Assembly: GCA_903828565.1 (NCBI GenBank)
Contig: CAIKMQ010000003.1
Coordinates: forward strand, 248,001 to 312,000
Source: an uncultured Leptolinea sp.
Lineage (GTDB): Bacteria; Chloroflexota; Anaerolineae; Anaerolineales; Anaerolineaceae
Reading direction: 5' to 3'
Length of the DNA stretch: 64,000 nucleotides
The notes beneath the pieces are model-generated. The model was not told the origin of the DNA. It did no database searches and saw nothing but the letters and a program-made list of their open reading frames with translations. Made by a program: the position numbers and the translations under genes. Positions 58,725 to 63,012 of this stretch are shown one piece after another. The number at the start of each line of letters is the position of its first letter. Within the stretch, counting starts at the first letter, position 1.

Positions 58725-58733
58725 TGATATAAT
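58725..58733 (+). promoter_or_regulatory. Extended -10 promoter of miaB, leaderless
   Basis: TGATATAAT: extended TGn plus perfect TATAAT at 58728-58733; no clear -35. The start should be near 58740, one base before the ATG at 58741. The in-frame ATG at 58732 lies inside the -10 and cannot be the start. Confidence 0.65.
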
Positions 58734-58740
58734 GGACGCC

Positions 58741-60069
58741 ATGAAATACCATATTTGGACAGAAGGCTGCCAGATGAACGTGGCAGATTCCCTGCGGGTC
58801 TCCACCGCGCTGGAGCAGATGGGGTATGAACCGGTAGGCGCACCGGAAACGGCAGATGTCATTGTTTTGAACACCTGCGTGGTGCGCCAGTCGGCTGAAG
58901 ATAAGGCTTATGGCCGGCTTAGTTCCATCCGCCCGCTGAAAGACGCCAACCCCGGATTGGTCATCAACCTGATGGGCTGCCTGGTAGGCGTCAAGAACAA
59001 CCCAATTCTACGGCAGCGCTTTCCCTATGTGGATGTCTTCTCTCCCCCTTCCGACCCGGCACCGCTGATCTCTCACCTGCAGCAGAAACACCATCAGCTA
59101 ATGCAGGCGGGTGAAACCGCTGAGCGTCACGCGTTGATGGATGAAGAAATGTCCCTGCCGGGCTATGCCCACGCACAAGGCGTGACGGCTTTTTTGCCGG
59201 TGGTTCTGGGATGCTCCCATGCCTGCACCTACTGCGTCATCCCTTACCGGCGCGGGGTGGAAGAAAGCCGCCCCTTTGACCAGGTGGTCGCAGAGGCCGA
59301 GAGCATGGTTGCAGCTGGTGTGCGTGAGATCACCCTGCTCGGGCAGATCGTTGACCGTTTTGGGAAAGACCTTCCCCCTGGGCAGGATCTGCCTGCCTTG
59401 CTGCGGCGCATCTCACGAATCTCCGGGCTGTCGCGCATACGCTTCCTCACCTCCCACCCCAACTGGATGACGGACGAGCTACTGGATACTGTGGCTGAGA
59501 TTGAACAGGTCTGCCCGCACATCGAGGTGCCTGTTCAGGCGGGGGATGATACTGTGCTGCAGAATATGCGCCGCGGCTACACCCGCGACGATTACCGCCA
59601 GTTGGTGGCCCGCATCCGCCGGCGAATCCCCGGAGTCTCGATTGCCACCGACATCATCGTCGGCTTCCCCGGCGAAACAGATGAACAATTTCAACAGACC
59701 TACGATCTGCTGGAAGAGTTGCGGCTGGATGTAGCCCACCTGGCCCGCTATTCTCCGCGGCCGAACACCGTGGCTACCCGCCAGATGATGGATGACGTCA
59801 GCGCCGCCGAGAAAATGCACCGCTTCAGGCTGTTGGAACAGCAGCAGGAGCGCATCGTGGGCGAGATCCACGCCGGCTACCTGGGGCGGGTGGTGCCGGT
59901 GCTGTTCGAAGAGAAACATAAGGATCGCTGGCGCGGCCGCACTGAGACCAACAAGCTGGTTTTTGTGGAAACCAATGCCGACCTGCGCGGGCAACTGCTG
60001 CCTGTGCACATCACCTGGACCGGGCCGTGGTCCATGCTGGGCGAGCTCGCCCGTGCCGGGGATCAATGA
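58741..60069 (+). CDS. miaB: tRNA-2-methylthio-N6-dimethylallyladenosine synthase
   Basis: 442-aa radical SAM methylthiotransferase acting on A37 of tRNAs. N-terminal UPF0004 domain with three cluster Cys (TEGCQMN, NTCVV, MGCLVG). The radical SAM domain has GCSHACTYCVIPYRRG (C-x3-C-x2-C) and VPVQAGDDTVLQNMRRGYT. C-terminal TRAM domain from about 375. Start choice is set by the promoter. The NUDIX gene starts within its stop (ATGA). Confidence 0.93.
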   Translation: MKYHIWTEGCQMNVADSLRVSTALEQMGYEPVGAPETADVIVLNTCVVRQSAEDKAYGRLSSIRPLKDANPGLVINLMGCLVGVKNNPILRQRFPYVDVFSPPSDPAPLISHLQQKHHQLMQAGETAERHALMDEEMSLPGYAHAQGVTAFLPVVLGCSHACTYCVIPYRRGVEESRPFDQVVAEAESMVAAGVREITLLGQIVDRFGKDLPPGQDLPALLRRISRISGLSRIRFLTSHPNWMTDELLDTVAEIEQVCPHIEVPVQAGDDTVLQNMRRGYTRDDYRQLVARIRRRIPGVSIATDIIVGFPGETDEQFQQTYDLLEELRLDVAHLARYSPRPNTVATRQMMDDVSAAEKMHRFRLLEQQQERIVGEIHAGYLGRVVPVLFEEKHKDRWRGRTETNKLVFVETNADLRGQLLPVHITWTGPWSMLGELARAGDQ

Positions 60070-60497
60070 AGAAACAGCGTATCCGCCCAATCGCCATCGG
60101 GATTTTCGAGAATGAGGGGCGCATCTTGGTTTTTGAGGGCTACGACGCGGTGGAAGGCGAATACTTTTACCGCCCACTGGGCGGCGGGATTGAATTTGGT
60201 GAGACTGGGGCGCAGGCGCTGGCACGCGAGATGCGCGAAGAAACGGGGGAAGAGATCAAGGATGTGGCTTTTCTGGGGATGATCGAAAGTATATTTACCT
60301 GTTATGGAGATCCCGGGCATGAAATCGTGCTGGTATACCGGGCGGCTTTCTGCTCTGATGAGGTGTACTTGCGGGAGGAGCTGACCGCCGGCGAAGATGA
60401 CGGAACCGTCATTCGCGTGCGTTGGATGGAGAAGGAGTGGTTCCGGGACCACCCGGGCATGCTTGTCCCCGAGGAATTGGTGGGGTTGATTGGGTAG
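60066..60497 (+). CDS. NUDIX hydrolase
   Basis: 143-aa hydrolase. The Nudix box GGIEFGETGAQALAREMREE then TGEEI is complete. The start IRPIAIGIFENEGRILVFEG is typical of MutT-like members. Substrate unknown. It starts in a 4-base overlap with miaB and so is co-translated. Three small hairpins follow the stop. Confidence 0.88.
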   Translation: MKKQRIRPIAIGIFENEGRILVFEGYDAVEGEYFYRPLGGGIEFGETGAQALAREMREETGEEIKDVAFLGMIESIFTCYGDPGHEIVLVYRAAFCSDEVYLREELTAGEDDGTVIRVRWMEKEWFRDHPGMLVPEELVGLIG

Positions 60498-60503
60498 AGG
60501 GGG

Positions 60504-60598
60504 TTGAGTCCCACTTATGGAAGAAAGTGAGACTCAAAAGGGTTTGTGTCTCATTGGTGGGACATAAATGGTGCGGAGTGATGCGGTTGGAACGCATC
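60504..60598. repeat. Three consecutive small inverted repeats
   Basis: First: 13-base arms with one mismatch (60504-60516 with 60525-60537). Second: six-base arms with one G-U pair (60547-60552 with 60559-60564). Third: six-base arms (60580-60585 with 60593-60598). GTCCCAC at 60508 can also pair with GTGGGAC at 60557. They sit between the NUDIX gene and an AT-rich island. They could be a composite terminator, a small RNA or an island border. Confidence 0.45.
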
Positions 60599-60632: not shown

Positions 60633-60887
60633 CTACTTTCTTATAAAGGTTACTTCCCCCGTTTTTTGATTAACCGATTCTACTTTCCAACCTGCATCAA
60701 GCCAGGAGGTTGCCTGTGGCCGGTTCAGATGCGCAATCTGGTTCCCCCACCATGGACGGTGATCATATGCACTGCCAGGTAACTTGGCACCTAAAATCTG
60801 CTCAATCTCAATAAAACTGAATGTACGGGTTGAAATAGATACGGGAAGAGCTTCGAAAAACTTTTGAAGTGGATCATATTTACCCAT
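60633..60887 (-). CDS. DUF7662-like small protein
   Basis: 84 aa. GKYDPLQKFF at the start, SFIEIEQILGAKLPGSA, HRPWWGN and SWLDAGWKVESVNQKTGEVTF (20-residue limit kept by listing as SWLDAGWKVESV) form the layout of a family often listed as DUF7662. No function is established. GAGGG precedes the ATG. It is divergent from the YaaA-like gene with a shared AT-rich promoter region, and both lie in a low-GC stretch. Confidence 0.7.
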   Translation of the reverse strand: MGKYDPLQKFFEALPVSISTRTFSFIEIEQILGAKLPGSAYDHRPWWGNQIAHLNRPQATSWLDAGWKVESVNQKTGEVTFIRK

Positions 60888-61005
60888 GCGTTTACCCTCT
60901 ATATTTTCGAAAATCTGAATATGGAAATATCCAAGGTGCTATCGTGAGATCGGATGTAAGGCCTATAATTATTATACGTCTGATTTATAACTGGAGTTCG
61001 TGATA
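60888..61005. promoter_or_regulatory. AT-rich divergent promoter region of the island
   Basis: 118 bases between divergent genes. TATAATTATTATA at 60963-60975 offers -10 elements on both strands. No clear -35 is seen. Confidence 0.4.
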
Positions 61006-62160
61006 ATGGAAAAATTACCCGTTCTCTTCATTTCTGTTTGTTCACATCTCAAGACAAAGAATGACACGCTTGTTGATTATTCTGACCAAGAATCAATTTT
61101 CAACTATCTTGATAAAAAACTTCAGCGGAAACTCCACAGTATTAGAGAGAGTAATCTGCGGTTGTTATTGGATGGAAAAATATTGAGGGATGGTGAGCCA
61201 ATAATTAAGAAACCTTCGAATAGTGAGTTAACTCTAGGCAAAGATTTAATGTATGGCGGTGCAAGTCAGGGTAAATACCTTCCAGCAATAAAAAGGTACG
61301 CAGGCAGGTTTTATACCCAACTCGGAGGAGAAAATGATAGGGCATGGCTGATAGAAAATTCAAATATACATCTTCTGATTATCTCGGGCCTGTATGGTGT
61401 ACTTACTCCTTGTGAAATGATACAGGACTATTCGTTACATATTCTTGATAGCTCAGAAGTTGCACACAACTGGAGAGAGGATGATTCTCTCACACAACTT
61501 ATAATCAACTACATTACACATAACAAGATTCAAAAAATAATTGATGTAATGGGTGATGATAATTACAAACATCTACTCAATTGGAATGAGCTGCGTCGAT
61601 ATGTAAGAGGGAATTTGCTCCATACTTTTAGTTTAGAATATTCATCGCCTGATATTCTATTCCCTCTTGGTTGTTTATTAAAGGATATGATCTGGAATTA
61701 TTCCGATGCGGATTATCAGCGATTACGCCCAGGTAAGGTTGTAGATACGGAATATCACCCTGTGTACTTTGATGAAGTTCTAATTACATCAAAAAATCCG
61801 AATTTCCGAGAAGAAAGTGAATCAAAGAAGGGACTTTTATGTAATATCGATCGTGTTCGAAGGATGAAGGCCAATTTAAATCGAGCGGTCCATTCCGTTC
61901 TACTTGACAAGAAAATATATAAAAAGACGCATGGACTTGGGGGAAACATTGATTTATTAGGATCAAACAACATTGTTTCACTGACATTCCTACAAGATAT
62001 GAGGAAATTTCTAGATATGCGGAATGCGATTGATTATGAAGATAAACAAATTTCAGAGAAAGAGTTTCATCTTCTATGCACGATATATGATAATTCGATC
62101 ATAGAATTGACAAGGATACATGGAGCTCGCTTTAATTATTTAGAAGATGTTAACCGATGA
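61006..62160 (+). CDS. YaaA/DUF6884-like protein with helical C-terminal domain
   Basis: 384 aa. Residues 1-190 resemble the YaaA/DUF6884 fold: LFISVCSHLKTKN at the start, KYLPAIKRYAGRFYTQLG, and LLIISGLYGVLTPCEMIQDY, close to the SGLYG-L-P motif of YaaA. Residues about 285-384 are helical and contain MRNAIDYED, which faintly recalls the R-N-x3-H motif of HEPN domains, but the His is Tyr. Codon use (AAT, AAA, ATA) is clearly unlike the neighbours, so recent transfer is likely. ATG at 61006 has GGAG 9 bases upstream. A defence or stress role is a guess. A terminator follows. Confidence 0.6.
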   Translation: MEKLPVLFISVCSHLKTKNDTLVDYSDQESIFNYLDKKLQRKLHSIRESNLRLLLDGKILRDGEPIIKKPSNSELTLGKDLMYGGASQGKYLPAIKRYAGRFYTQLGGENDRAWLIENSNIHLLIISGLYGVLTPCEMIQDYSLHILDSSEVAHNWREDDSLTQLIINYITHNKIQKIIDVMGDDNYKHLLNWNELRRYVRGNLLHTFSLEYSSPDILFPLGCLLKDMIWNYSDADYQRLRPGKVVDTEYHPVYFDEVLITSKNPNFREESESKKGLLCNIDRVRRMKANLNRAVHSVLLDKKIYKKTHGLGGNIDLLGSNNIVSLTFLQDMRKFLDMRNAIDYEDKQISEKEFHLLCTIYDNSIIELTRIHGARFNYLEDVNR

Positions 62161-62185
62161 TATAACGAGGAAGGGAGTTTTGTGG

Positions 62186-62218
62186 GTCGGGTAGAGTGCA
62201 GCGATCCCCGACGTTTTT
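62186..62218 (+). terminator. Terminator after the YaaA-like gene
   Basis: Six-bp stem (62186-62191 with 62207-62212) with a 15-base loop, then GTTTTTCT. Moderate stem but good T-run. Confidence 0.6.
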
Positions 62219-62270
62219 CTGTCACAATTATTAACGCTATTATCTCTTCCCCATCATGTAAGAGATGGTC

Positions 62271-62288
62271 GCTGCGCGTGCGCGCAGC
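62271..62288. repeat. GC-rich inverted repeat downstream of the glycosylase gene
   Basis: GCTGCGCG-TG-CGCGCAGC, 41 bases past the minus-strand gene stop. It marks the return to high GC at the end of the AT-rich island. No T-run is found on either side. Confidence 0.5.
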
Positions 62289-62328
62289 GCAGGTGTCATT
62301 TCGTTCAGCATGGCAACCAAGGGCTAGG

Positions 62329-63012
62329 TTATCGATCGCACCGCTGCGCATACGTTTGCCTACCCTCGCACCTTTCCTGCAGCAGGCAGCGCGCGCACTG
62401 CGGTTTTGCCGGGTGGCAGATCTCCCGCCCCAGGCGGATGAAGTTCAGGTGTGCCGCATAGTAGGTCTCCGGCGGCAGGGCGGCTTCCAGGTGGCGATGG
62501 GCCTCTTCCACACTCATCTCGGGCGGACGCAAGCCCAGCCGGCCGCTGACTCGGTAGATGTGCGTATCCACCGGGAATGCCGGCTTGTTCAGTGAAAATA
62601 ACAATACGATTGCGGCGGTCTTCGGACCGACGCCGTTGTGCTTCATCAGCCAGGCACGTGCTTCTTCCAACGGCAAGTCAGCCAGAAAATCCAGCGACAG
62701 GGAGCCGCGCTCTGCCTGGATATCCCGCAGTACCTGCTGAATGCGCGGGCCTTTCTGGTTCGCCAGCCCAGCTATACGGATGGCTGCGATCACCTCTGCT
62801 GTTTCCGCGCAGGCGACCTGCTCCCAGGTGGGGAAGCGGACACGCAGCGAAGCAAAAGCCCGGTCCCGGTTGATATCATTGGTGTTTTGAGATAGGATGG
62901 TTGAGACCAGCTCATCCAGTGCTGGCAGGGGATTGCGCCAGGTGGGATGTCCGTAGAAAGACAGAAGCAGCTGGTGGGCTTCAAGCGCGGTGAGCGGAGC
63001 CAGCGCGGACAT
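62329..63012 (-). CDS. Endonuclease III-type DNA glycosylase/AP lyase
   Basis: 227-aa base-excision repair enzyme. The HhH-GPD motif ends in NGVGPKTAAIV with catalytic Lys131, and Asp149 is in FPVDTHIYRV. The [4Fe-4S] Cys follow: C199-x6-C206-x2-C209-x5-C215, the exact Nth spacing. It should remove oxidised pyrimidines. The ATG at 63012 is chosen; the frame is open to 63138 but overlaps the asparaginase gene. It is 7 bases downstream of the asparaginase stop. Confidence 0.9.
   Translation of the reverse strand: MSALAPLTALEAHQLLLSFYGHPTWRNPLPALDELVSTILSQNTNDINRDRAFASLRVRFPTWEQVACAETAEVIAAIRIAGLANQKGPRIQQVLRDIQAERGSLSLDFLADLPLEEARAWLMKHNGVGPKTAAIVLLFSLNKPAFPVDTHIYRVSGRLGLRPPEMSVEEAHRHLEAALPPETYYAAHLNFIRLGREICHPAKPQCARCLLQERCEGRQTYAQRCDR

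Follow-up and report, generated by a model that had tools for sequence, protein, structure and literature searches.

An AT-rich island of two divergent genes, both with intact reading frames, interrupts a region of otherwise housekeeping appearance (by eye) in the window, the 64,000-nucleotide stretch of Leptolinea DNA analyzed here. The genome it comes from totals 2.22 Mb, split over 48 contigs. A reading from sequence alone had singled out the pair as a candidate for an undescribed system, which raises the question of what the larger protein does and whether the smaller gene belongs with it. Our main reading, to which we assign a probability of roughly 0.5, is that the large gene is a member of an undescribed single-protein sensor-effector family, in which a YaaA-like sensing domain is joined to an exchangeable effector of RNase or toxin type. 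What stands of the earlier proposal is a YaaA-like/HEPN-like fusion with relatives that carry other toxin or RNase tails; the two-gene system does not. The locus contains the following features.

58732 to 60069, + strand: MiaB-type gene (by eye), bordering the variable site on the left
60066 to 60497, + strand: nudix-type gene (by eye), GC3 host-like at 0.69; missing at the G011 site
60504 to 60537: hairpin, 92% complementary
60580 to 60598: hairpin
60633 to 60887, - strand: DUF7662 gene (PF24698), 84 amino acids; predicted model winged-helix-like, with weak matches
60888 to 61005, no strand: divergent intergenic region, with GGAG at 60993 to 60996 (+) and GAGGGT before the ATG at 60887 (-)
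61006 to 62160, + strand: YaaA-like/HEPN-like fusion gene, 384 amino acids from ATG 61006 or 386 from GTG 61000
61006 to 61785, + strand: YaaA-like domain, residues 3-262 (Pfam match, VIA structural alignment, pLDDT mostly above 90)
61039 to 61053, + strand: C14-S-H-L-K18, which fits the CxxxK motif described for DUF6884
61381 to 61398, + strand: ISGLYG, residues 128-133, counterpart of LSAxxG in which I replaces L and G replaces A
61807 to 62136, + strand: predicted HEPN-like helical domain, residues about 270-379 (VIA and Foldseek on the predicted model)
62020 to 62037, + strand: R341-N-A-I-D-Y346 (RNAIDY), in the place of R-x4-6-H in HEPN RNases, with Tyr for His
62277 to 62354: GC-rich inverted repeat, 85% complementary
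62329 to 62997, - strand: endonuclease III-type gene (by eye), bordering the variable site on the right

To judge from its spacing, nine nucleotides 3' of GGAG, ATG 61006 is the likelier start of the large gene than GTG 61000; residue numbers nevertheless follow the 386-residue reading from GTG 61000.

Composition sets the island apart. Across 60633 to 62160 the GC content is 0.373, against 0.544 (SD 0.032) for the window over 1.5-kb stretches, and every one of the 12 lowest-GC stretches of that length overlaps the island. The large gene has the lowest GC3 (0.32) among the 53 window open reading frames of at least 100 amino acids (median 0.615), and the DUF7662 gene has a GC3 of 0.39, while the nudix-type gene on the left side is at 0.69. 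The initial description of two low-GC divergent genes with codon use unlike their neighbors is thus borne out, and the stretch, foreign in composition, was probably imported into a Chloroflexota-type genome. The hairpins and inverted repeat said to flank it do exist but are unremarkable, given 3 terminator-like sites observed against a shuffled mean of 1.5 (SD 1.3). A search for direct repeats flanking the island, as insertion edges, found none.

Comparison with relatives revealed a variable site, as had been anticipated. In one genome of the same family (G011), the miaB gene ends 94 bases before the endonuclease III match, which is followed by an asparaginase-type gene; between the same neighbors, the window holds the nudix, DUF7662 and YaaA-like genes. 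The nudix-type gene (60066-60497) is gone from G011 but has host-like GC3, so it may represent a separate insertion or a loss in G011. The surroundings of endonuclease III in six other family genomes, two of them read on contigs or stretches no longer than 8 kb, had no adjacent miaB (0 of 6; the G008 match lies about 5 kb off) and are not informative on the site.

A second copy of the fusion occurs at another site in a same-genus genome (G001), where it lies between murE-type and LOG-type genes (by eye). Its protein is 31-37% identical to that of the window and matches letter for letter a named record of Anaerolinea sp. SW.3.17. This copy is AT-rich too (GC 0.325 versus 0.494 for its locus), and two imports, one in the window and one in G001, would be the simplest account. 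The long form is otherwise rare nearby: matches were found in 2 of 61 relatives, in 2 of 396 genomes of the class when a single protein was the query (one a weak 62-residue match), and, at the level of the order, in 2 of 350 genomes, with four other matches in frames of 260-291 amino acids. Across the phylum, a two-row profile gave matches in 10 of 400 genomes; the strongest were the window's own and that of G716, whose long-form copy is cut off by a contig end.

The YaaA-like nature of the N-terminus, as first proposed, is supported by both sequence and predicted structure. The Pfam YaaA family (PF03883, DUF328) matches residues 91-198 at 7e-10 (39.3 bits against a curated cut-off of 29.6), VIA superposes residues 3-262 of the predicted model on E. 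coli YaaA (5caj; Z 16.4, 227 aligned, 3.9 Å), and Foldseek returns YaaA at 8e-6. The AlphaFold2 model, made from an input alignment of 24 rows, has a mean pLDDT of 85.8, with ten-residue means mostly above 90 up to residue 260. While sharing fold and Pfam match with YaaA, the window protein differs from the E. coli protein by about 125 extra C-terminal residues and a DUF6884-like CxxxK motif, and it fails the NCBI equivalog criterion for the peroxide stress protein YaaA (best 29.2 bits, cut-off 392).

DUF6884 (PF21818) is distantly related to YaaA according to Pfam's authors and features CxxxK and LSAxxG-type motifs (PMC11701544), both of which are present in the window protein. However, no DUF6884 match was listed for it at E ≤ 10, and the congener's protein scored below threshold (19.4 bits against 30). 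The designation DUF6884-like therefore holds at the superfamily level only and not as a profile match. DpdC, which belongs to the dpd restriction system and has been placed in DUF328 (PMC12839542) and in DUF6884 (PMC11888242), acts on 7-deazaguanine in DNA (PMC12839542); in contrast to that system, no dpd genes were noticed in the window by eye. In PADLOC-DB 2.0.0 (2023), no family matched the large protein or the DUF7662 protein at E ≤ 10.

The helical, HEPN-like C-terminus suggested by the sequence-only reading agrees with the predicted model, in which VIA pairs the tail with 2hsb (Z 10.2, 99 aligned, 2.4 Å; helical bundles can reach about 10 by chance), 6m6w_H (Z 10.1, 103 aligned, 3.6 Å), and 7ae2_A (Z 8.8). 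Ranks 2-15 were nearly all HEPN or HEPN-partner chains (Z 8.5-10.2), above the first clearly unrelated row, DrrA (Z 7.7), and other bundles (at most 6.7). Foldseek placed HEPN chains at E values of at least 0.27, several with probability above 0.9. The tail is the model's least confident part (ten-residue pLDDT means of 48 to 87; 66 around the motif), and because the alignment fed to AlphaFold included archaeal RNx3H tails, the HEPN fold, although supported by prediction, is not independently predicted. When the window tail was compared by hhalign with the archaeal RNx3H tails, probabilities were 0.15-0.27%, no higher than the 0.09-0.28% obtained with the SLFN and RelE tails; these profiles, thin as they are, show no sequence link between the window tail and the archaeal ones.

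Active HEPN RNases are described as carrying R-x4-6-H, with D replacing H in some families and another conserved H as a potential contributor (PMC3710099). The motif is absent here, with RNAIDY in the window and RNDVEY in the congener copy (L034); H311 is invariant in the two-row alignment of these proteins. The titles of 7ae2 and 7ae8 name H107, Y109, and R102, corresponding to R-x4-H-x-Y. Counted along the aligned ranges, R341 falls between one and four residues away from R102, the offset varying with the end at which counting starts, and R341 and Y346 may match R102 and H107. The tail would, on the predicted model, resemble HEPN toxins (HepT, MNT-HEPN) in its helical fold (VIA Z about 9-10), and it shares an R-N motif start at a roughly matching place; it departs from them in the Tyr for His, the YaaA-like fusion, and the lack of any MNT antitoxin gene noticed nearby.

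Beyond the genus, a three-row alignment (window, G001, G716) retrieved eight loci from named records, comprising the congener, three Gammaproteobacteria, two Alphaproteobacteria, one Methanomicrobiales, and one Chloroflexi. In relatives from Proteobacteria and archaea, the YaaA-like domain is followed by a ParE-like, Schlafen AlbA_2, or RNx3H tail, the first two filling the place that the HEPN-like tail occupies in the window protein. With a six-row N-domain profile, 25 of 232 genomes in the class of L040 matched, 19 of them across almost the full domain with E below 1e-50. The class of L035 gave matches in 81 of 274, with E below 1e-12 only in L035's own genome; the other matches (7.8e-13 to 4.2e-4) were mostly in YaaA-length frames.

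Tail assignments differ in their basis. ParE-like tails passed the Pfam cut-off in L036 and L038 and also in L072, a partial copy, and fell below it in L035, and the RelE label of L065 and L069 denotes sub-threshold Gp49 matches. SLFN_AlbA_2 was over the cut-off in all six members scanned (L040, L055, L061, L062, L064, L068) of nine SLFN-labelled rows. Ten rows have R[NG]x3H tails, a motif that helped label them and is not independent; among the RNx3H rows, Swt1-HEPN matches, both sub-threshold, occurred only in L067 and L081, and the Pfam scan listed none for L070, L071, L056, L060, L063, and L079. Labels for L054, L057, L059, L066, L078, and L080 were given by eye or motif. L063 and L079 continue into HEAT repeats, and in L056 and L060 the YaaA match has a sub-threshold DUF6884 match ahead of it.

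On a tree of 34 rows, one branch (100/100) splits 27 long forms from 7 classical YaaA rows. With the window and L034 counted as HEPN and L037, L039, L041, L058, and L072-L077 left out, at least four changes among three tail classes are required; well-supported branches alone force fewer (HEPN 2, SLFN 2, RelE 1), and the sequence cuts were too long for L035, L067, L070, and L079. Because the long branches of the window and L034 meet, their sister relation (95/65) is unsure. As a separate observation, two loci encode a gene beside the YaaA-Schlafen fusion (L137, 6236-6958; L131, 7272-8267) that resembles by eye the N-terminal extension fused in L059, L061, and L062 and is a candidate functional partner.

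The defence role envisaged for the island is suggested by the tails of its relatives, and the neighborhood evidence is mixed. In archaea, 102 neighbor proteins from 18 loci (L118 and L127 unused; L136 a 271-residue partial copy only) matched 263 PADLOC models versus 82 for 101 control proteins from 14 arbitrary stretches of the same genomes, figures that count models, many of them redundant methylase models. By protein, among the first 25 matches listed for each set, the loci gave three (mad2) plus two (type I methylases; PDC-S09), and the controls gave three (mad2), two (mad3), and a Wadjet-type set; an excess of defence genes is not clear. In bacteria, with L034 and L041 excluded, 28 neighbor proteins from five loci matched 151 models, including type I methylase, specificity, and PDC-S11. 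The controls, 58 proteins taken from 15 of 18 short contigs, matched 14, including restriction-methylases. This signal is suggestive, coming from few loci that are not independent, since a single cassette, nearly copied, seems to account for the type I genes next to L025, L039, and L041.

Among individual neighbors, type I restriction genes lie near L039 and L041 (and, by eye, L122 and L134), an NTPase with a sub-threshold NACHT match near L036, an EVE protein near L134, and a separate DUF6884 protein near L136. A PLD protein adjoins L035 and a sub-threshold one L037; the NucS/DUF4268 proteins near L038 and L039 are presumably the two PDC-S11 matches. Searches of plasmid, phage, and viral collections returned no relative of the window protein, and two alignments found none in viral contigs. 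The plasmid matches of L038 and L040 were limited entirely or mainly to the tail.

The small gene was correctly read as DUF7662: PF24698 matches at 4.4e-11 (42.9 bits against 26). Structure searches with its model (pLDDT 93.6) gave a best Foldseek E of 0.087 and a best VIA Z of 5.3, with several winged-helix DNA-binders among rows too weak to rely on. The protein may be a winged-helix regulator in its own right and not an obligate partner. Within the phylum, 28 of 201 genomes contain DUF7662, one of them the window's own, and 0 of 14 control genomes do; elsewhere it is often a small protein, sometimes with an XRE-like helix-turn-helix (by eye). CBS domains are joined to DUF7662 in L020, L160, and L177, accompanied by Swt1-HEPN matches that are sub-threshold in L020 and L177 and by eye in L160. 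The first two (L020, 1051-2574; L160, 478-2253) combine CBS, DUF7662, DUF4268, and a Swt1-HEPN-like part in a single chain and are possibly kin of NCBI's CBS domain-containing anti-phage protein DS11 (NF053863), with which, going by its family name, they have the CBS part in common. The HEPN-type part of L081 matches DS11 weakly (E 0.052), far under the cut-off (12.7 bits against 260).

If the two genes formed a toxin-antitoxin-like module, a YaaA-HEPN toxin would be paired with DUF7662 as antitoxin or repressor across a common divergent promoter. Their divergent adjacency and shared low GC are consistent with this, as are the chaining of DUF7662 elsewhere with CBS, DUF4268, and sub-threshold Swt1-HEPN matches and its weakly winged-helix-like model (best Z 5.3). 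Yet the examined flanks of other YaaA-fusion loci (some 1.4 to 8 kb on either side, shorter where a contig ends) contain no DUF7662, and the congener G001 (85% complete) carries the fusion with no DUF7662 match, which makes such a module distinctly improbable. As far as this DNA reaches, the outcome is the one that the sequence-only reading had itself named as refuting, a lack of co-occurrence in other genomes. The DUF7662 gene is probably not a fixed partner of the fusion gene; its tie to HEPN-like proteins may be recurrent, and only the window shows it tied to the YaaA fusion.

The missing HEPN histidine lends itself to two further accounts. One is that the fusion is a decaying cargo gene from a past insertion, its function lost, in keeping with its foreign composition and its solitary position in a region of housekeeping appearance. 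We regard decay as very improbable because the frame is intact, the CxxxK and [LIV]SxLYG motifs are conserved, the N-domain is well folded in the model, and a divergent congener copy, 31-37% identical, keeps the same RN-x3-Y. The other is a DNA-repair or oxidative-stress protein, with a YaaA-like domain that acts as in E. coli (peroxide protection) and C-terminal domains that are accessory nucleic-acid-binding modules, not toxins. Homology to YaaA in sequence and structure and archaeal neighborhoods that are not clearly defensive agree with that role, but the separation of long forms from classical YaaA on the tree, the patchy presence (2 of 350 genomes of the order), and tails drawn from RNase and toxin families of different folds render it unlikely.

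Under the sensor-effector reading, the YaaA-like domain would bind nucleic acid, the likeliest target being a DNA feature that is foreign, damaged, or modified, and binding would alter the state of the C-terminal effector. The effector would then cut RNA or otherwise halt translation, and would be swapped between lineages among HEPN-like, ParE/YoeB-like, and Schlafen AlbA_2 forms. In the window member, with Tyr for the catalytic His, another residue (H311 is a candidate) might serve, or the tail might act by binding alone. E. coli YaaA co-purifies with dsDNA, and those who solved its structure call its molecular role unknown (PMC4834066). From that co-purification and the role of DpdC, we infer a similar capacity in the fusion family. 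The fusion protein has a YaaA-like domain, its relatives differ in their tails, and its site is variable; DNA sensing, toxicity, and a part in defence or DNA-stress shutdown are putative.

A broader proposal, which we put forward tentatively, is an undescribed family, polymorphic and with an immune or genome-stress role, that spans archaea and bacteria. Its YaaA-like sensors of DNA lesions or modifications would bear interchangeable HEPN, RelE/ParE, or Schlafen tails, such that aberrant or foreign DNA would directly trigger RNA destruction. The tail fusions give a testable hint that what YaaA-like domains sense is the state of a nucleic acid. They also mark out, among archaea and uncultured bacteria, a candidate family of sensor-effectors whose window member is unmatched by the 2023 PADLOC models. 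Among the literature matches listed, mostly outside subscription literature, no title or abstract opening reports a fusion of YaaA, DUF328, or DUF6884 to HEPN, Schlafen, or RelE. The main text of a 2013 HEPN survey (PMC3710099) names neither YaaA nor DUF328, and the terms YaaA and anti-phage both occur in PMC12489045, PMC12483538, and PMC12887533. Two apparent leads (PMC12135965, PMC11148199) were discarded, as the matches were to DUF3289.

The cassette of type I restriction genes and a YaaA fusion at L039 and L041 merits a remark of its own. The two are near-copies by eye under different labels, Alphaproteobacteria and Chloroflexi, which points to transfer or to mixed assemblies. Upstream of the restriction genes and the fusion in L039, the translation of positions 1-306 repeats one residue run and looks like a CRISPR-type repeat array.
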